Source: an uncultured Gammaproteobacteria bacterium
Lineage (GTDB): Bacteria; Pseudomonadota; Gammaproteobacteria; SZUA-140
DNA: 39,847 nt
Direction of reading: 5' to 3'
Assembly: GCA_945787155.1 (NCBI GenBank)
Contig: CALZHD010000006.1
Coordinates: 1-39,847 of the forward strand
The translations under genes and the position numbers were made by a program. Shown here piece after piece: positions 17,866 through 27,776 of this stretch. The notes under the pieces were generated by a model, which saw only the letters and a list, made by a program, of their open reading frames with translations, had not been told where the DNA came from and searched no databases. How positions within the stretch are numbered: position 1 is the stretch's first letter; every line of letters starts with the position of its first letter.

Positions 17866-18897
17866 CTACTCAGATTGATCGTCAATATCCCGCTTCGCGC
17901 GACAACAACGATTACGCCCTTCCTCTTTTGCATCATAGAGCGCCCCGTCTGCCAACGCTATCAAGCTGGCCGAATCTTCGCCACACCGCGGGGGTATGCC
18001 TGCCGCACCAAGTGAGATCGTGACAACGCCACTAACATCAGAGAATTCATGTTTTAGTGCTAACTGCTCAACAGCGAGACGCAGTTCTTCAGCGATTACC
18101 ATCGCGCCATTAAGATCCGTATTGGGTAAGATCACACCGAACTCTTCACCTCCATAACGCGCTACCATGTCGGAAGATCGACGCATCGTCGTGGCCAGAG
18201 CAGTCGACACTCTACGCAGGCAATCATCGCCACCCTGATGACCATAACCATCATTATATTTCTTGAAAAAATCGATATCGATCAACAGCAAGGCAAGACT
18301 GGTCTCTTCACGAACTGCGCGACTCCACTCCTTACTAATATATTCATCGAACGAACGCCGATTCGGAATCCCGGTCAAGCCATCAATGGCAGACAATCGC
18401 TCAAGCTCAATATTACTCGCCTCCAGTTCTTTCTGCAGTTCATGTAACTCACGAAAAGCCTGATCTCGTTGCAGTTGCGCTAGAAAACTACGCGAGTGAG
18501 CCTGAATTCGTGCAATCAATTCAATTTTATCTGGCAGCTTTACCAGGTAGTCACTAGCCCCGTTACTAAACGCCTCGCTCTTATCCTTAGGTTCCTCTTT
18601 ACTAGACAGTACGATCACCGGAGTGTTCTTCAAGGCAGGGTGATTACGATACGAACGCACCAGCGTCATACCATCGATATCTGGCATCACCAGATCCTGC
18701 AGGATCGTCGTTGGCTGTACCTCGAGGGCCATATCAATAGCCTTCTTCGAGTCGCTACAATAATGGAGAGTGATCGTCACTTCACTCTCAAGCATGCGCC
18801 GAATCGCTTCAGCCACAATCGGCTGATCATCCACCAGTAATACAACAATGGCGTCAGCCATATTGCCTTCTGTTAATGACTCGTTAACTTCGTTCAT
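17866..18897 (-). CDS. wspR: Response regulator-diguanylate cyclase WspR
   Basis: Output enzyme of the Wsp system: phosphorylation of its receiver domain stimulates synthesis of cyclic di-GMP from GTP. It has 343 residues (Pseudomonas WspR 347). Receiver domain about 15-138 with phospho-acceptor D68 (LQDLVMPDIDG); a helical linker; GGDEF domain about 170-335 with an intact active site GGEEF (249-253) and inhibitory I-site R240-S-S-D243. It starts at ATG 18897; a second start at 18861 has a better AGAAGG, but the longer form matches the Pseudomonas N-terminus in length. Last gene of the operon, 15 nt after wspF. Confidence 0.96.
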   Translation of the reverse strand: MNEVNESLTEGNMADAIVVLLVDDQPIVAEAIRRMLESEVTITLHYCSDSKKAIDMALEVQPTTILQDLVMPDIDGMTLVRSYRNHPALKNTPVIVLSSKEEPKDKSEAFSNGASDYLVKLPDKIELIARIQAHSRSFLAQLQRDQAFRELHELQKELEASNIELERLSAIDGLTGIPNRRSFDEYISKEWSRAVREETSLALLLIDIDFFKKYNDGYGHQGGDDCLRRVSTALATTMRRSSDMVARYGGEEFGVILPNTDLNGAMVIAEELRLAVEQLALKHEFSDVSGVVTISLGAAGIPPRCGEDSASLIALADGALYDAKEEGRNRCCRAKRDIDDQSE

Positions 18898-18912: not shown

Positions 18913-19947
18913 TTAACATGCCGTCACTTTGCTATATTGTTTGAGCAGTGTCGCCCCGATGCAATCTAATGGTAAAACTTTCACTGCAGCATTTAGCGCT
19001 ACTGCCGCCTTCGGCATCCCATATACAGCACAACTCTTTTCATCCTGCGCGATGGTAAACACGCCTTTCTGACGCAACGATAACAGTCCAGCAGCACCAT
19101 CACGCCCCATTCCTGTCAACAATGCCGCCGTCACGTCTCCGCCCCAGTGCGCTGCAACACTCTCAAAGAAGACGTCTACAGAAGGGCGGTATACTACTTC
19201 TTTTGGGTCTGAAGTATATGCCAAACTTCCCCTGGGGGACATCACAAGGTGATCATTGGTCGATGCAACCTGAACGATACCAGGCGATACACACTCACCC
19301 TCTTCTGCAACTTTAACCTGTAAATTGCATTGAGTATTAAGCCACGCAGCTAAATCACAGGAAAAATGCGCATCGATATGCTGAATAATAACCACGCCTG
19401 CAGGAAAGTCTGAGGGAAGTTCAGCTAATATTTTAGCCAATGCCGGCGGCCCTCCAGTAGATGAGCCTATCGCCACTAACGACTGATGCTTATGTAAAAC
19501 CGAATACGAAGGTTGCGACTGCAGTTTTTCTACATGACGCGATGGAATAGGTCTGGTTAATTTCTCTATCGTCTTGATTTTATCTAATAGTGCAATATTA
19601 TCCTTAACATCCTCAGCCCCCCTCAATACGGGAGTTTTCACCACATCCAGTGCGCCAGCGCCCATCGCCTCAAACACCATTGCACTGTTACCTGTGACTG
19701 AGCTTGTGACGATCAAAATCGGGCACGGCGTCGCAGCCATAATTCGACGGGTCGCTTCAATTCCATTCAATATCGGCATAACCAGATCCATCAAAATCAG
19801 ATCAGGAAGATCATGCTGACATCGCTTTACCGCCTCTTCGCCATTCACAGCCACCCATGCCAGCTCATGATCAGTCGCCGTCACCAGCAAGCGCCTCAAA
19901 CCCTCAACAGCCATCATCGTGTCATTAACGATCGCTATCCTCATCAT
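18913..19947 (-). CDS. wspF: CheB-like methylesterase WspF
   Basis: Receptor methylesterase/deamidase with receiver domain, 344 residues. Receiver domain about 1-125 with D54 (LILMDLVMP); catalytic CheB domain about 155-340 with the serine in GSSTGGPPAL (S163), the histidine in IIQHIDAHF (H190) and the aspartate in TGMGRDGAAGL. In Pseudomonas, loss of WspF locks Wsp signalling on. It overlaps the wspE stop by 4 nt (ATGA), which suggests coupled translation. ATG-ATG doublet at the start leaves a one-codon ambiguity. Confidence 0.95.
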   Translation of the reverse strand: MMRIAIVNDTMMAVEGLRRLLVTATDHELAWVAVNGEEAVKRCQHDLPDLILMDLVMPILNGIEATRRIMAATPCPILIVTSSVTGNSAMVFEAMGAGALDVVKTPVLRGAEDVKDNIALLDKIKTIEKLTRPIPSRHVEKLQSQPSYSVLHKHQSLVAIGSSTGGPPALAKILAELPSDFPAGVVIIQHIDAHFSCDLAAWLNTQCNLQVKVAEEGECVSPGIVQVASTNDHLVMSPRGSLAYTSDPKEVVYRPSVDVFFESVAAHWGGDVTAALLTGMGRDGAAGLLSLRQKGVFTIAQDEKSCAVYGMPKAAVALNAAVKVLPLDCIGATLLKQYSKVTAC

Positions 19948-22295
19948 GCCTCTCCAATCAAATCTATCACAGCTTCACGCAATGCCTCATCATGAAAGCA
20001 GCCCTTAGTCAGGTAATAATCCGCGCCAGCTTCAAGCCCAAGTAGCTTATCCTCTTCACGGTCCTTGTAAGAAACCACCATAACAGGCATATTACGCAAT
20101 GCATCATCCTGTTTCATCATACGCACCAGCTCAATGCCGTTCATCCTCGGCATATCAATATCAGTAATGACCAGGCGATAGTCACCACTGCGTACAGCAT
20201 TCCAGCCATCCATACCATCAACCGCAACATCTACCTCATAACCATAGGCCTCCAGCATTTTGCGCTCGACCTCTCGTACAGTAATTGAATCATCAACTAC
20301 CAGCACCCGTTTACTGATACCTTCATCAGCGGCATTTTCTCCACTTACCTTATCAATTCGACCTTTTGAAATTAACTTGGAAATCGAGCGCGCCATATCA
20401 TCCACATCAATAATCAATGTCGGCGAACCATCATCAAGTAATGCAGCTACGCTGACATCTTTTACCTTGCCCAGACGTGGATCAATTACCTGAACCGCCA
20501 GCTCACGCTCACCTAGAAAAGCATCAACAATCACACCATATTGACCATGCCTATCGCTAAGAATGACCACGAACAACTGCTCTCTCTTTGCAGTAGATTG
20601 CTCAGTACCAAACACCTGAGAGGCTGAAACCAGACCGATATGGCGATTATTCCACGTAATATATTGATGATCTTCAACGACTTCAATCTGATCATCTTCG
20701 ATCTTAAGCAAATGATCGATTCGTGCCAAAGGAAAGGCATAGCACTCACCCCCGATATCGACCAATAGCGTTCTGATTACCGACAAGGTCAACGGTAACT
20801 GCATCTGAAAGCAGGTGCCCTGACCTGCTTTAGATGTAATCGTCACCACCCCTCGCATCTCCTTAACCGCGTCGTGAACAACATCGAGGCCAACACCACG
20901 CCCGGATATCTCAGTCACTTCACTGCGAGTACTAAAACTCGGTAGAAAAAGAAATTCCAGCAATTCCATATCACTCATTTGCGCCAATATCTCTTCACTA
21001 CTCAAGCCACGCTCAATAATTTTCTGCTTAAGCGTTTCAAGATCAACACCACGCCCATCATCCTCTACCGTCACTACCAGCATTCCCGAACGGTGACGAG
21101 CATCAAGCTTTACAATCGCCTGAGAGGGCTTGTCATTTCCAGTACGAACGTCTGGCATTTCAATACCGTGATCTACAGCATTTCGCAATAAGTGATTGAG
21201 CGGAGCCTTCACCATTTCTAACACATCGCGATCAACCTGGGTGGTCACTCCGGTAATCTCAAGCCTGGCATCTTTGCCCAGCGAACGTGCGACATCGCGC
21301 ACCATGCGCTGAAAACCATCTACACCATCAGAAAAAGGGCGCATTCGGCTTGCCAACACTTCACGATGCAGCCTGCCTGCAAGATTCCCCGTACGGTAAT
21401 CAAAATGCTCAAGATCAACAAGACGATCCGATAGCGCTTCACGCTGCTTCACTGCTTTTCGTTGCAACTCCATTAATGCAGTTTCCACTACAGGCTCAAT
21501 GCCTGTTGCATTAAACTTTTCACGCAAGTTATCAAGATCACTCACCAGGTCAAAATGAAAACGCTTAAAACGTTGCATCGCCTCTATGTGTGGATGTAAC
21601 CAACGAGCCTCAACCATCGCCTCTCCTGCCAATCCAAGCAACTTATCCATACGCTCAGTACTGACACGTAATACGCGCTCTTTTACTTCCGCCAATGAGG
21701 CCGCTTTATTCGGCGGGGTTTCTGCTGCCAGGCTATTCACTGCAGACTTCTCAGATACAATCGGAGAAGAAGCATCCTGCCGCATACCAGAGACAGGTGC
21801 TGACGCCTCATCATCAACGCTATCTTTAATCACTCCAGACTCATCTCCAGTGACAGCAGGCTTCACTACCACCGCTGCTTGTGATCTCTCACCAGTTAGT
21901 ATCCCTTCAATGGCCAACACCAGTGAATCAAGCGCTGTTTGGTTCAACTCAACCCATGATGAAAGGTCTGATTCGTCTAGTTTTGATACTTGCCCCATCA
22001 TATCGACGCCATTCAACAACACATCAATATCAACACTAATAAATTCCAGCTCACTTTTCTGAGCCGCAACAAAACAGTCCTCCATCACATGAGCCACTCG
22101 TACTACCGGATCAATATCCACCATCCGCGCAGCGCCTTTAATCGAATGAGAGGCACGCATCATCGATTCAAGATTTTCCGTAGAAGATGGATTTTGCTCC
22201 AACACAAGCAGGCCATCAGTCAGCAACGACAGCTGCCCTTCGGCCTCCGTTCGGAAGAGGTCCAACATTGAGAAGCCACTCAGATCGTCACTCAT
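19944..22295 (-). CDS. wspE: CheA-receiver hybrid histidine kinase WspE
   Basis: Central kinase of the Wsp pathway, 783 residues. The N-terminal Hpt domain has phosphorylatable H50 (ASHSIKGAAR). After a variable linker rich in Ser/Ala/Val come dimerisation and HATPase regions with LLRNAVDHGIEM, VEDDGRGVD and ISGRGVGLDVV. A CheW-like regulatory domain follows (about 505-640). A C-terminal receiver (about 660-780) has phospho-acceptor D712 (LVITDIDMPRMNG). The fused receiver, and the absence of any cheY in the cluster, are Wsp hallmarks. It phosphorylates WspR and WspF. It overlaps wspD and wspF by 4 nt each. Confidence 0.96.
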   Translation of the reverse strand: MSDDLSGFSMLDLFRTEAEGQLSLLTDGLLVLEQNPSSTENLESMMRASHSIKGAARMVDIDPVVRVAHVMEDCFVAAQKSELEFISVDIDVLLNGVDMMGQVSKLDESDLSSWVELNQTALDSLVLAIEGILTGERSQAAVVVKPAVTGDESGVIKDSVDDEASAPVSGMRQDASSPIVSEKSAVNSLAAETPPNKAASLAEVKERVLRVSTERMDKLLGLAGEAMVEARWLHPHIEAMQRFKRFHFDLVSDLDNLREKFNATGIEPVVETALMELQRKAVKQREALSDRLVDLEHFDYRTGNLAGRLHREVLASRMRPFSDGVDGFQRMVRDVARSLGKDARLEITGVTTQVDRDVLEMVKAPLNHLLRNAVDHGIEMPDVRTGNDKPSQAIVKLDARHRSGMLVVTVEDDGRGVDLETLKQKIIERGLSSEEILAQMSDMELLEFLFLPSFSTRSEVTEISGRGVGLDVVHDAVKEMRGVVTITSKAGQGTCFQMQLPLTLSVIRTLLVDIGGECYAFPLARIDHLLKIEDDQIEVVEDHQYITWNNRHIGLVSASQVFGTEQSTAKREQLFVVILSDRHGQYGVIVDAFLGERELAVQVIDPRLGKVKDVSVAALLDDGSPTLIIDVDDMARSISKLISKGRIDKVSGENAADEGISKRVLVVDDSITVREVERKMLEAYGYEVDVAVDGMDGWNAVRSGDYRLVITDIDMPRMNGIELVRMMKQDDALRNMPVMVVSYKDREEDKLLGLEAGADYYLTKGCFHDEALREAVIDLIGEA

Positions 22296-22987
22296 ACAAG
22301 AGCTCTCCGCAGCGAGTTAAACAACAACTCCTGATCTAATAGCCCAACATGCCGTTCATCAAGTTCAAATAATCCAGCAAGGTGCGAATACATCGAATTA
22401 GCAGCCGTGGCGGGTACATCTCGAATACTATCTTTCCAAATACGGTGTGTACCGATAATTTCACTCACCGGAAATACAAACTGCTCGCTATCTTTTTCAA
22501 TAATCACCAACCGCTCAAGAAAGCTTTTTCGCAATTCGTCAAAATCAAATTTCTCTCCCTTATCAACTGAAAGCAGTGTTCCCACTGACATCCATAACTT
22601 AAGCTCACCTCTGACATTCACTATCCCTTTAGTCACCGCACTCTTAGAATTTGGAATGCCATGCACTGGGCGTATCTCAGATATTTCATTGATAATCTTT
22701 GTTGGTAACCCAAGCCACTCATCACCAAGCCTGAACACCACTATTGACAGTGATTCATTACTCTTTTCGACCTTCTCCTTAGCCAGTAATGTTGTCCAGG
22801 ATTCCTGATAATCTAGCGGAATCGCGCGCGTCAGCAGGCTACGTCCAGCGCTCGAATACACATCGCAGTTACGGCAATGCAATACGTCTTTAAGACGAGG
22901 GCATTTTTCACCACCTTTACTCCAGACACCAATGGTTGACCAACAATTGTCTATCTGTTCATCCATAAAAACACCTACACCAGACAT
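22292..22987 (-). CDS. wspD: CheW-like coupling protein WspD
   Basis: Scaffold linking receptor and WspE, 231 residues, longer than a plain CheW. The CheW domain covers about 75-225. The N-terminus has a four-cysteine region, C15, C29, C38 and C41 (the last pair in HCRNCDVY), as I recall from WspD homologues. It could bind metal or form disulfides; function unknown. A second start, ATG 22966, would remove seven residues and has an AGGTG upstream, so the start is open. The stop overlaps wspE by 4 nt. Confidence 0.93.
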   Translation of the reverse strand: MSGVGVFMDEQIDNCWSTIGVWSKGGEKCPRLKDVLHCRNCDVYSSAGRSLLTRAIPLDYQESWTTLLAKEKVEKSNESLSIVVFRLGDEWLGLPTKIINEISEIRPVHGIPNSKSAVTKGIVNVRGELKLWMSVGTLLSVDKGEKFDFDELRKSFLERLVIIEKDSEQFVFPVSEIIGTHRIWKDSIRDVPATAANSMYSHLAGLFELDERHVGLLDQELLFNSLRRALV

Positions 22988-22990
22988 TCA

Positions 22991-24268
22991 TTACTGCCTC
23001 GCCCGCTCGGCACGCCGCCTAAGGCTAAGTGCCTCATCAACACTACCATTACGCTCAACATGCAACGCAAGATGAACCAGAGCCTCTGTGTGACTGGGGA
23101 CTAAATAGATGGCCTTTCTGAACATCGACTCAGCCATGCCAGATCTATTTGTCGCCTCATACACCACGCCCAATAAATAGAATGCGTCCGCACTACTAAA
23201 GCGCGCAAGCGCCTGTTGACAAATTTCTTCCGCCTCCTCAAGAGAGCCCTCATCTGCTAATCGACGCGCCTTTGAAACAAGCACATGCTCATCAAGCTCA
23301 TCATCAAATTTATTACGTACCAAATAAGCAGAAAATGGCTTACTATCAACAACGTCTGTTCCGCTCACTAAACTCAAGCTGGGAGTTTTATTCTCAACAG
23401 AAGGTATTGCACTATATTTTTTAGAAAATTCAGCAATCTTTTCATCATAACCACTAGATTCAGTAACATCTAATTCGCATTTTTTAACAAAGGCAAAGGA
23501 ACCACGCATGCGCAATGATCTGAATAAGTGATTAACATTATTATTCGCTTCTGCATGTCCTACAAACAACACTCCATCGGACGCCAACAGATCATAAAGT
23601 TTACTCACTGCCAACTGCTGATCATGATTATCAAAATAGATCAGTAAATTACGGCAAAAAATCACATCATAACCACCTTTCATCTCTGAAAAGTTATCCC
23701 TTAGTAAATTACCTTGTCGAAAGTTCACACGTTTTCTGATACGACTCTTCAACCGATAGCCATCAGCAATCTTTGTAAAATAAGCATCGCGAAATGAAAG
23801 ATCCATGCTACGAAAAGAGTTTTCTCGGTAAACACCCTTCTTTGCCTTATCAAGTGAATGCTGACTAATATCAACGGCATCAATCTGCACACGTGCAACA
23901 GGAAAATTTATTTTATCCAGCGCCATAGCAATGGTGTACGGTTCTTCACCAGTAGAGCAGGGTATGCTCAAAATTCTAAATGTGCGCGCACTATTCTCAG
24001 GCATTAACCAGTTACTATTTATATTGCTAGTTAATACATCGAATGGAACATCATCCCTGAAAAACCAGGTCTCAGGAACTACAACCGCCTCAACCAGGCG
24101 TTTTAACTCATCTTCCGAAGCTAGCAAAACCTGATAATAGTGATCTACATCTTTGAAACTTGAATCCTTTAAACAACGTTTAATGGCATTTTGAATAGAT
24201 GCCTCGCCAACCGTATTGACATCAAGCCCGATTTTTTCTTTTAGCAATGTTTCTATTTTCTTGCACAT
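22991..24268 (-). CDS. wspC: CheR methyltransferase with TPR domain, WspC
   Basis: S-adenosylmethionine-dependent receptor glutamate methyltransferase fused to tetratricopeptide repeats, 425 residues. The CheR part shows VVPETWFFRD, LSIPCSTGEEPYTIAMAL (SAM site) and VIFCRNLLIYFD. After a low-complexity linker (about 275-330), TPR-like helices occupy about 340-420 (EAEEICQQALARFS, AFYLLGVVYEATNR, AESMFRKAIYLVPSHTEAL). I chose ATG 24268, which forms TGATG with the wspB stop like the wspA-wspB junction; an upstream in-frame start at 24310 would overlap wspB by 43 nt. Adaptation partner of WspF. Confidence 0.94.
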   Translation of the reverse strand: MCKKIETLLKEKIGLDVNTVGEASIQNAIKRCLKDSSFKDVDHYYQVLLASEDELKRLVEAVVVPETWFFRDDVPFDVLTSNINSNWLMPENSARTFRILSIPCSTGEEPYTIAMALDKINFPVARVQIDAVDISQHSLDKAKKGVYRENSFRSMDLSFRDAYFTKIADGYRLKSRIRKRVNFRQGNLLRDNFSEMKGGYDVIFCRNLLIYFDNHDQQLAVSKLYDLLASDGVLFVGHAEANNNVNHLFRSLRMRGSFAFVKKCELDVTESSGYDEKIAEFSKKYSAIPSVENKTPSLSLVSGTDVVDSKPFSAYLVRNKFDDELDEHVLVSKARRLADEGSLEEAEEICQQALARFSSADAFYLLGVVYEATNRSGMAESMFRKAIYLVPSHTEALVHLALHVERNGSVDEALSLRRRAERARQ

Positions 24269-24735
24269 CACTTGTCCATTACAGCTGGGCTGCCATAAAG
24301 AAGGTCGCAATCACGCCTAGATAGCAGGCAATCTATATCCATCCACTGAATTACACCTTGAGCATCAGTCATAATATTTGACACATAACTCTCTTCAGAG
24401 GACTTTAATACTGATTGATGAAAACGACTCAGTTCAAGCTCAATCGTTTCGGTCGCATATTCAGCGATTATTCCAAGTATGTGCTCATGCCCAGCATACC
24501 CTGTATAATTAACCAAAAAAATCCGCGTACTCATGACCTGCTCTGAAGAGACCCCATTAAGCAAATATCGTATATCAACCACGGGTACAGGCACTGCACG
24601 ATAGTTACATAATCCTGCTATATAATCGGGTGCTTTCGAGAAGTTACTCAACTTAACCAACGGCACAACCTCAACTATTTTTTTAGCATCGACCACATAA
24701 CGATCTTCACCAACATGGAAGAGAACAAAAAGCAT
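24268..24735 (-). CDS. wspB: CheW-like coupling protein WspB
   Basis: Coupling protein of 155 residues formed essentially of one CheW domain: FVLFHVGEDRYVVDAKKIVE, then APDYIAGLCNYRAVPVPVVDIRYLL in the classic place. It links receptor to WspE; Wsp systems use two CheW proteins (WspB and WspD). Its start shares a base with the wspA stop and its stop shares a base with the wspC start (both TGATG), so translation is probably coupled through the operon. Confidence 0.94.
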   Translation of the reverse strand: MLFVLFHVGEDRYVVDAKKIVEVVPLVKLSNFSKAPDYIAGLCNYRAVPVPVVDIRYLLNGVSSEQVMSTRIFLVNYTGYAGHEHILGIIAEYATETIELELSRFHQSVLKSSEESYVSNIMTDAQGVIQWMDIDCLLSRRDCDLLYGSPAVMDK

Positions 24736-26768
24736 CAGGAATCAATCTTGAACTGTGATACGCCACCCTGAAGTCCATGAGCAGCATCATTCAAACGGTC
24801 AATTGCACTATTAGACTGGCGCAGTGACTCTACCGTCTGTTGTGATGATTCACTTAGCTGAATCATTGCGTGCTTGATCTGCTCAGCACCTTCAGATTGC
24901 ATATGCATTCCTTCATGCACAATCTCAAAACGAGGCGTTAATGTCTGCACTTGATCAATAATCTGCGCAAGCTGCGCCCCAACCTGACGCACATCTTCAA
25001 CACTATTTTTCACCTCGTTCGAAAATTTCTCAACACTCATCACACCTGCAGATACGGCTGACTGCATCTCTTGAACCATTTGTTCAATGTCAAGCGTGGC
25101 TACCGCAGTCTGGTCAGCCAGACGTCGAATCTCGGTCGCTACTACGGCAAAGCCGACACCGTATTCGCCCGCTTTTTCTGCCTCAATAGCTGCATTCAGT
25201 GACAACAAATTGGTTTGGTCGGCAACCTTTGTAATAGTGGTAACAACCGAATTAATGTTACCCGCCTTTTCGCTCAACACTTCAAGCTTTGATGCGATCG
25301 AATTCGACGCATCAACCACTGAGTGCATCGTGTTCTCCATACTTACGAGTCCGGTATGCCCATTTGCCGCAGCTTCAGCAGTACCCGATGCCACTCCAGC
25401 CACCTCATCCATTGTATTGACCAGCTCTTTTCCTGTCGCAGAGATTTCGGTCGCCGTCGCCACAATTTCATTAACAGTGGCAGCCTGCTCCGCTACCGTT
25501 GCCTCTTGCTGTTTCGCCGAAGCGGCTATTTCAGTTGAAGAAGATGTCACTTGTATGCCTGATTGCTGAACCTGTGAAACAAGCCCATTTAGACTACTAA
25601 TCATCGCCTGAATACCTTTCGCCATTCTGCCGACGGCATCATCACCGCTAATATTAATTTCTCCAGTAAGATCACCAGCGGCGGCTCGTTGCACCACTTC
25701 CTGCACCAGACCAACTTTTTCCTCGAGATCTTCCATTGCAGTACGACGCTCTTCCATTAGCTCACTCAAATTACGAACCATGGATTGCAAACCTGATCCG
25801 AGTGAACCAATCGCATCATCACCATTAAAGTTAACAACACCAGTCAGGTCACCCTGTGCAGTTCGATTCACCACATCAAGCAATATGTTGACCTTATCTT
25901 TAAGTGCTTCAGCGGCCTCATGCTCGCGCTGTGCTTGTATTTTTTCCTGCTGACTCGCTTTATCAACATTGTCAGCCATCGTATTCAGTGCCGAACCAAG
26001 CTTACCAATCTCATCCTGTGTAGTTAGATCTACACGTACTGAGGTATCACCAGCGGCCCGCCGATTAACCGTATCCATAACACGTCTTAGCGGCTTGGAA
26101 AGCCACCTACTCAACAAAAAATTTGCCAGCAATAGCCCTATTACCAACAAAGTAATATTCGCTAAAATCTGAGTCTGCACATCTTGAGCTATCACTTCAT
26201 CCTGATGCTTCAGTGAATAGCTGACACGAATGGCGCCATTAACAGAATTTTCAGGCACATTATGACAAGCCAGACAATTCACATCCCCCGGTTCTTTCGC
26301 TGATGTCGCACGGAAAGGTGTCAAGACGGTAATCACACGCCCTTCAACACCCTTGCCAACATCCTTCCCCTGCTGTAGTTCTATAATTTTTTCACCCTGA
26401 AGTGCACGCATATCCCACTCATCAACAGGGGCCTCTTCTGGAAAACCTGGGCCATACTGCTGATTAACTGGCTCCCCACGAATCACTCTTGCATCCACAA
26501 CATTATTACGTTTAAGAATTTTATTTCGCAGGATACTGCGCTGATCCATGGTGTTGGTTAACATCATGGTATTGAGGCTATCGAAATAGAATGTGGCTAA
26601 ATCCTGCGCGCGTTCCTCAGCATCATCATGAGCACGCTGCTTCTCTAAATAAACCGTATAACCAGTCACCATGCTGATTACAAAAACAAAGATGGTGGCA
26701 ACGGTCAGATTGATCTTCACCCGAACGGACAGATGACCAAACAACGAACCACTCTCTTGCGACACCAT
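24735..26768 (-). CDS. wspA: WspA-type methyl-accepting chemoreceptor with periplasmic c-type haem motif
   Basis: Membrane receptor of the Wsp system, 677 residues. Membrane helix about 19-40; periplasmic domain about 41-200; second helix about 201-219; HAMP about 221-270. Two further HAMP-like units contain QGDLTG (305-310) and AGDLTG (364-369). The MCP signalling domain follows (about 400-677), with the hairpin tip near ITKVADQTNLLSLNAAIEAE (512-531). The periplasmic domain holds C165-L-A-C168-H169, a covalent haem c attachment motif, just before a beta-rich end (GAIRVSYSLKH). Pseudomonas WspA, a surface-contact sensor, has no such motif to my knowledge. A Tll0287/DUF3365-like haem sensor domain is possible. 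No C-terminal pentapeptide for CheR is seen. GAGGG lies upstream of ATG 26768. Confidence 0.93.
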   Translation of the reverse strand: MVSQESGSLFGHLSVRVKINLTVATIFVFVISMVTGYTVYLEKQRAHDDAEERAQDLATFYFDSLNTMMLTNTMDQRSILRNKILKRNNVVDARVIRGEPVNQQYGPGFPEEAPVDEWDMRALQGEKIIELQQGKDVGKGVEGRVITVLTPFRATSAKEPGDVNCLACHNVPENSVNGAIRVSYSLKHQDEVIAQDVQTQILANITLLVIGLLLANFLLSRWLSKPLRRVMDTVNRRAAGDTSVRVDLTTQDEIGKLGSALNTMADNVDKASQQEKIQAQREHEAAEALKDKVNILLDVVNRTAQGDLTGVVNFNGDDAIGSLGSGLQSMVRNLSELMEERRTAMEDLEEKVGLVQEVVQRAAAGDLTGEINISGDDAVGRMAKGIQAMISSLNGLVSQVQQSGIQVTSSSTEIAASAKQQEATVAEQAATVNEIVATATEISATGKELVNTMDEVAGVASGTAEAAANGHTGLVSMENTMHSVVDASNSIASKLEVLSEKAGNINSVVTTITKVADQTNLLSLNAAIEAEKAGEYGVGFAVVATEIRRLADQTAVATLDIEQMVQEMQSAVSAGVMSVEKFSNEVKNSVEDVRQVGAQLAQIIDQVQTLTPRFEIVHEGMHMQSEGAEQIKHAMIQLSESSQQTVESLRQSNSAIDRLNDAAHGLQGGVSQFKIDS

Positions 26769-26921: not shown

Positions 26922-27776
26922 CTAGAACGCTCGCCCAATAGAAAGACTCACCACATCCATGCTGCTTCTGGGTTGGTGCACTAAAAATGCGCCTGAGGTT
27001 ACAGCCGCGGATTTTGAAAAGCGATAACTATCATACATGAAATAGATAAATACCCCCTTATCCAGATTACTGCCATTTACAAGCTGGAAACGATACGTAA
27101 GGAAGACTGAGGCCTCTTTACCTGGGTTAAGCTCGACAGAAGGAACATCAAGGGTCTCTTTTGTGTACACAGGATATTTTATACCCATACGCCACAGGCT
27201 TTTCCAGAGCATCTCTCTATTCTCCACCCCCAATGAAAACCGGGTGAAGGCAACCTTATAATCCTCCACCAGGCCACTAACAGTTTTACCCTGTGAATTC
27301 ACCCCACTGCTGATCTCTCTGGTCCAGTCATCTACCCCCACTCCCGCCAGCAGATCAAGCGAACGGCCCCAAAAAAGGTTCTTAAATCGATATCCACCCA
27401 AAAACTCTCCTGATGCCCCGGCATAATCGACATCGGCAGCACTAAAATGACCACCTGGCTGGCTCTGACCATCATACTCAACATCTCCACCATAGAGCGA
27501 AGCGCGCCCATTATAAATGAAGCCACCACTCAATCTCGCATCGTTGTTAAGAGAAAGGCTTAAACGAGCGCGGGGCCCCTGCTCAGTCAGCAGGCGAATG
27601 TCGCTATTATCATACTCTTGCCAGCGAAACAGTTCGAGACCAATACTGACCTCGGTCATTCCACCATGAAATAGATGTTCATCTTCTGATAGCAGCGCTT
27701 CTTCCGCCATAGCCTGAGGCTGCCACAACAATAACAGCACCGCGCTAATTAAAGCGCAAATGGATAATTTCTGCAT
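26922..27776 (-). CDS. Outer-membrane beta-barrel protein, function unknown
   Basis: Protein of 284 residues with a signal peptide (about 1-24, cleavage after AMA), many alternating hydrophobic/aromatic strands, and a C-terminal aromatic residue (VSLSIGRAF) as in BAM-assembled outer-membrane proteins. I do not recognise the family. Strand-like segments such as DARLSGGFIYNGRASLYGG and LLAGVGVDDWTREIS resemble eight- to twelve-stranded small barrels. It lies 153 nt upstream of wspA in the same direction, so it could be a separate unit or a leader gene of the wsp operon. No terminator with a T-run is seen between them. AGGGTG precedes the ATG. Confidence 0.75.
   Translation of the reverse strand: MQKLSICALISAVLLLLWQPQAMAEEALLSEDEHLFHGGMTEVSIGLELFRWQEYDNSDIRLLTEQGPRARLSLSLNNDARLSGGFIYNGRASLYGGDVEYDGQSQPGGHFSAADVDYAGASGEFLGGYRFKNLFWGRSLDLLAGVGVDDWTREISSGVNSQGKTVSGLVEDYKVAFTRFSLGVENREMLWKSLWRMGIKYPVYTKETLDVPSVELNPGKEASVFLTYRFQLVNGSNLDKGVFIYFMYDSYRFSKSAAVTSGAFLVHQPRSSMDVVSLSIGRAF

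Follow-up and report, generated by a model that had tools for sequence, protein, structure and literature searches.

The window, a stretch of 39,847 nucleotides from an uncultured Gammaproteobacteria bacterium, carries on its minus strand a single operon, wspA-B-C-D-E-F-R, running from 26768 down to 17866 (Table 1). The system is a Wsp system of the R-type by its synteny on one strand, by a WspE that joins a CheA kinase to a receiver, and by a WspR that joins a receiver to a GGDEF domain. The catalytic motif of WspR is GGEEF, and RSSD, five residues upstream, is the inhibitory I-site. The gene order wspABCDEFR, the CheA-receiver kinase, the CheB and the receiver-GGDEF protein with its GGEEF and RxxD are all as in the Wsp system of Pseudomonas. 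The difference lies in the receptor. The periplasmic domain of Pseudomonas WspA is a putative 4HB_MCP_1 (PMC8846402), whereas that of the WspA of the window is a Cache domain of a predicted c-haem type. A further gene on the minus strand, at 26922-27776 and 153 bases upstream of wspA, encodes a protein of 284 aa that has a signal-like N-terminus and matches nothing in Pfam. Its place beside wspA is conserved in the genus alone (52-66% identity along the whole length, with one contig-end fragment at 88%), and since it is restricted in this way its candidacy as a Wsp component is unsupported.

Table 1. The wsp genes of the window and the two predicted haem-ligating sites in WspA
Feature	Positions	Strand	Description
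wspA	24735..26768	-	677-aa receptor
M69 codon of WspA	26562..26564	-	predicted distal haem ligand; aligns with Met60 of GSU0935
CLACH, residues 165-169 of WspA	26262..26276	-	predicted covalent haem c attachment (C165, C168), proximal ligand H169
wspB	24268..24735	-	coupling protein, CheW-like
wspC	22991..24310	-	CheR methyltransferase with TPR repeats
wspD	22292..22987	-	second CheW-like protein
wspE	19944..22295	-	kinase of CheA type, receiver at C-terminus
wspF	18913..19947	-	methylesterase of CheB type
wspR	17866..18897	-	diguanylate cyclase, receiver-GGDEF; GGEEF, RSSD I-site

The codons of the motif read TGT CTG GCT TGT CAT, or C165-L-A-C168-H169, and these two cysteines are the only ones in WspA. 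None of 20,000 residue shuffles of the protein yielded a CxxCH. Hydrophobic peaks at ~17-35 and ~197-215 mark two helices (TM1 about 15-40, TM2 about 195-215), and the haem-type Cache domain occupies ~41-195 between them. Three HAMP stretches follow, the first at 218-268, and then an MCP signalling domain at 478-639. An AlphaFold2 model places the motif in a compact domain between the two membrane helices. We conclude the motif is periplasmic because the helices flank its domain, the HAMP region begins at 218 and the model puts it in the same place. The preliminary description had claimed a full wspA to wspR set with CxxCH between two membrane helices, and had named a cytoplasmic topology as fatal to its reading. 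The set is complete, the helix peaks, HAMP start and model all agree on the placement, and the motif falls in the periplasmic segment.

Built from 55 homologues, the AlphaFold2 model of the domain has a mean pLDDT of 89.6 and a single Cache-type fold. Its elements are helices 15-70 and 74-85, strands 90-97, 128-137 and 141-153, a motif helix at 165-168 and a strand at 176-185; in the model CxxCH sits in an insert between the last two strands. Foldseek against the PDB gave at rank 2 the c-haem domain of GSU0935 (3b42_B, E 4.4e-5, prob 1.00). A VIA-align comparison to the haem protein Tll0287 (5b82) gave Z 9.2 and rmsd 3.3 over 120 residues. Other Cache domains score equally high, so this last comparison supports the fold and not the haem.

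The family is harder to name. No Pfam family rises above its cut-off in the periplasmic part of WspA, and phmmer with the full receptor against the PDB found no match for that part. There is no 4HB_MCP_1 match in the WspA of the window, and the model shows a Cache fold instead. Tll0287/DUF3365-like domains had been proposed as the place to look. PF11845 stays under its cut-off of 24.1 bits for the whole of WspA (E 0.47, 11.3 bits) and for the domain alone (E 0.027, 15.3 bits), and hhalign against PF11845 proteins gives 93% over just 44 columns round the motif. We reject a Tll0287-like assignment, since the score is below cut-off and the similarity is local. In contrast, hhalign against 29 domains of the GSU0582/GSU0935 kind (PF21563) gives 99.1-99.5% over about 165 columns, which is the whole domain, versus 8% and 1.5% for two control groups of non-haem WspA N-termini. 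The best single profile match is 3b47 (GSU0582); it is weak (E 0.063), with the CxxCH and the position of M69 co-aligned. The PF21563 model itself does not match the WspA of the window at E<=1, and the whole genome is without a match to it at E<=0.001. The domain looks like a further, unmodelled branch of the c-haem Cache domains, nearest to GSU0582 and GSU0935, because the similarity to the PF21563 type spans the whole domain while that to PF11845 is local and that to non-haem N-termini is low.

It is useful to set out what is shared with these relatives and what is not. GSU0582 and GSU0935 of Geobacter (3b47 and 3b42; PF21563) are also chemoreceptor-type proteins with a Cache or PAS-like fold, a CxxCH near the C-terminal end of the domain and a distal methionine. 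However, they are chemotaxis receptors, the aligned identity to them is about 13% in the profiles, and the WspA family has a conserved segment of its own, GPG..E...D..D...L.G; PF21563 does not call the WspA of the window. The sCache_heme domains (DUF3365, Tll0287; PF11845) also have c-haem inserted between Cache strands and have signalling outputs (PMC12889525), but the window domain reaches 15.3 of the 24.1 bits needed for that family and is similar to it only near the motif. Yoshioka is said to have described in 2005 the DcrA of Desulfovibrio as a chemotaxis transducer with a c-type haem. By that description alone it is a c-type haem chemoreceptor like the one predicted here, but its output is chemotaxis and not a diguanylate cyclase.

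We believe the case for haem is strong. M69 aligns in the profiles with a methionine of GSU0582, and the numbering of 3b42 puts Met60 of GSU0935 at that position. Met60 is the distal ligand of the reduced haem in GSU0935, and CO and NO displace it (PMC8396549). Both Geobacter sensors bind NO and CO, were measured at -156 and -251 mV, and are interpreted as redox sensors (PMC8396549). In our alignment the two cysteines and the histidine are kept in 55/55 homologous domains, with a synonymous mixture of TGT/TGC and CAT/CAC codons, and all 55 also have ATG at the position of M69. The source genome has ccmA, ccmB, ccmC and ccmE in order on one contig (C118); CcmE is matched at E 2.1e-36 and the other three were identified by reading the open reading frames. 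Covalent haem is the expected state because the ligand residues are invariant, the solved relatives carry haem and the ccm genes are present. WspA very probably carries covalently attached haem outside the membrane.

An objection could be raised about how the homologues were found. The search used two patterns, one of which contains CLAC, and 47 of the 55 sequences could be reached solely through the motif-free pattern. CxxCH is present in all 47. A sample independent of the motif was also built by searching for WspE in 369 genomes of the class, 63 of which gave a strong match. Every one of the 33 WspAs with this N-terminal domain has CxxCH, and 18/18 other receptors have neither the domain nor the motif. 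Both results speak against ascertainment bias. The motif is also retained in an orthologue of the WspA N-terminus (83-88% identity) in eight of nine sampled congeners; the ninth, 74% complete, yielded only the HD-GYP relative described below. Loss of CxxCH in close homologues, which the preliminary description held would count against it, is seen neither in the 55 domains nor in the 8 congeners with an orthologue.

About two thirds of the sampled gammaproteobacterial Wsp receptors carry the haem-type domain. In the other 18 the periplasmic part is four-helix or CHASE3-like, is Cache-like, or is almost missing; one of the non-haem WspAs (L148) matches 4HB_MCP_1 at E 9.8e-11. A scan of genome contigs for the domain gave 80 loci. 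Complete wspABCDEFR operons with a haem-type WspA make up 43 of these, 16 are partial or at contig ends, and 4 have A-D-E-R without wspC and wspF; in the rest the domain is on another protein, the locus is cut or no neighbour is in reach. Judged by their record titles, the loci belong mostly to Gammaproteobacteria (Chromatiales, Thiotrichaceae, Sedimenticola, Ectothiorhodospiraceae), and a few to Gallionella, Zetaproteobacteria and 'Deltaproteobacteria' MAGs. Over the labelled rows of a 65-row WspE tree, about 3 changes account for the haem state. When the haem group is set against all other rows, unknowns included, it needs 6, versus 22 with shuffled labels. CxxCH therefore segregates with a clade, as the earlier reading had proposed should be checked, both on the tree and in the 33/33 versus 0/18 split. 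By sequence there is a large haem-type Wsp clade outside Pseudomonas. We leave gain versus loss of the domain unassigned, since the tree has long branches, open forks and no reliable root.

Several variants of the operon turned up along the way. Compact operons of haem-type WspA, WspD, WspE and WspR (L051, L089, L093, L097, L105, L173, L174) have no recognisable wspB, wspC or wspF, and are apparently Wsp systems without methylation-based adaptation. Two operons (L154, L155) are otherwise complete, but their WspA, of 479-510 aa, has its two membrane helices side by side and scarcely any periplasmic domain. Two more (L145, L151) have a tandem pair of WspA-type receptors within one wsp operon.

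Some of this was known already. Both c-haem Cache receptors (Geobacter, the sCache_heme preprint) and Wsp systems have been described, and haem Cache domains are familiar from ordinary chemoreceptors. Kessler (2021) confined Wsp to the betaproteobacteria and Pseudomonas and found the sensory domain of WspA to be its most variable part (PMC8552884), and a paper of 2017 had already described two Zetaproteobacteria with complete wsp clusters (PMC5513912). The 2026 sCache_heme preprint does not mention Wsp (PMC12889525), and no paper joining c-haem Cache receptors with Wsp was found in the literature searched, which had few subscription journals. What is new is the presence of many gammaproteobacterial Wsp systems, a clade that lay outside the published survey (PMC8552884), and the naming of one sensory type of WspA. 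The size of this receptor subtype and M69 as a candidate distal ligand also go beyond the preliminary description.

Sequence, fold and conservation give good support to a c-type haem domain at the input of a Wsp system, as the preliminary description had supposed, with the haem itself a prediction. We put at roughly 70% the probability that WspA is a haem-c Cache receptor wired to the Wsp c-di-GMP system and working in the following way. The Ccm machinery would attach haem to C165 and C168 in the periplasm; the proximal ligand would be H169, and the distal one M69 on the long helix that crosses the membrane. Reduction would favour ligation by M69, and oxidation or the binding of NO or CO would free it. 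Movement of the helix relative to the strands would then shift the TM1/TM2 and HAMP chain, and this would alter, with whichever polarity, the autophosphorylation of WspE and the c-di-GMP made by WspR. WspC and WspF would adapt WspA through methylation. Of the signals first listed (redox potential, O2, NO and CO), the best candidates are probably NO/CO or the redox state of carriers in the periplasm. O2 comes behind them, since a signalling-linked sCache_heme relative does not form a stable complex with it (PMC12889525).

The strongest alternative is that haem binds and only sets the gain, while surface contact or membrane state, acting through the transmembrane and cytoplasmic parts, remains the main stimulus. 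The two may also coexist, with surfaces sensed through the rest of the receptor. WspA of P. aeruginosa keeps surface sensing when its periplasmic domain is swapped for those of other receptors, and the transmembrane region is implicated (PMC8846402), so the periplasmic domain may only tune the system. The sampled operons also exchange the periplasmic part wholesale, down to the WspAs of L154 and L155 that nearly dispense with it. However, C, C, H and M69 are strictly conserved over a deep clade, which argues for a more active role of the haem. We take this alternative seriously at a little under even odds.

A second alternative is that the domain serves specifically to sense NO in the periplasm, a role put forward for signalling-linked sCache_heme proteins. 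We consider this rather unlikely. The HAMP-linked sCache_heme protein of P. azotoformans has a slow NO off-rate and no stable O2 complex (PMC12889525), and GSU0582 and GSU0935 bind NO and CO (PMC8396549). But the P. azotoformans protein is of the DUF3365/PF11845 family, to which the window domain is only locally similar, and the GSU-type domains are interpreted as redox sensors (PMC8396549). Nor does the draft genome yield a NirS or NorB candidate. Its NirS matches were weak ones in a 333-aa frame and were rejected, and a COX1-family protein, which would include NorB, was not found in it, an absence that may reflect missing contigs since COX1 is present in most of the genus. There is no sign of home-made NO, because neither a NirS of normal quality nor a COX1-family protein was found in the draft. 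No cytochrome bd occurs in the genus.

That CxxCH is a thiol/disulfide switch or a metal site is highly improbable: two cysteines could by themselves make a redox disulfide, but the histidine and M69 are invariant in all 55 domains, the homologues of solved structure hold haem c in the corresponding position, and ccm genes are present in the genome. Chance is negligible as an explanation of the motif, short as it is, and is ruled out by the conservation, the split between receptor types and the shuffles.

If the haem-c receptor reading is right, it bears on what Wsp systems sense. Wsp is known mainly as a surface sensor, activation by surface growth being a trait of the R-type systems, and according to a 2022 review it is a mystery what WspA responds to (PMC8846402). 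With a covalent chromophore in the receptor's sensory domain, that stimulus would become accessible to spectroscopy and point mutants. The Wsp output module bears unrelated sensory domains, so a Wsp annotated by homology should not be equated with surface contact; haem-type receptors suggest that a Wsp input may be redox state or a small gas, nitric oxide for example. One could go further and argue that the haem-type WspA is a redox-contact sensor, with electrons passing between its c-haem and carriers in the periplasm or proteins of extracellular electron transfer. This is a doubtful step, with perhaps one chance in five or so. If it were true, c-di-GMP and biofilm formation would track how oxidised or reduced a mineral, electrode or sulfur surface is, 'surface sensing' in this clade would be redox sensing, and the HD-GYP haem Cache would supply c-di-GMP breakdown with an input of the same kind.

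That HD-GYP protein is a 474-aa membrane protein of the source genome (L009:1915-3339, contig C2 53832-54317) with a periplasmic CLACH domain and an HD-GYP type domain (HD_5, E 1.8e-36). Its CLACH domain is related to that of WspA (E 8.7e-12), and most sampled congeners have relatives of it. It is possible that it is a haem-gated c-di-GMP hydrolase opposing WspR. Because the fusion and the WspA system coexist, haem Cache domains would stand on the making and, by family, on the breaking side of c-di-GMP. The genome also encodes two true PF11845 (Tll0287-like c-haem) proteins: one stands alone and adjoins a multihaem cytochrome gene (L010:1495-2085), and the other, on contig C71, is cut by the contig end. 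Across the phylum the WspA-type domain occurs as well on chemoreceptors of 530-600 aa and on a few longer proteins, with CxxCH in all 22 inspected. One group of gammaproteobacterial genomes of 4-5 Mb has closely related chemoreceptors of 540-600 aa (L264-L270) that carry this domain with C[VI]xCH as its motif.
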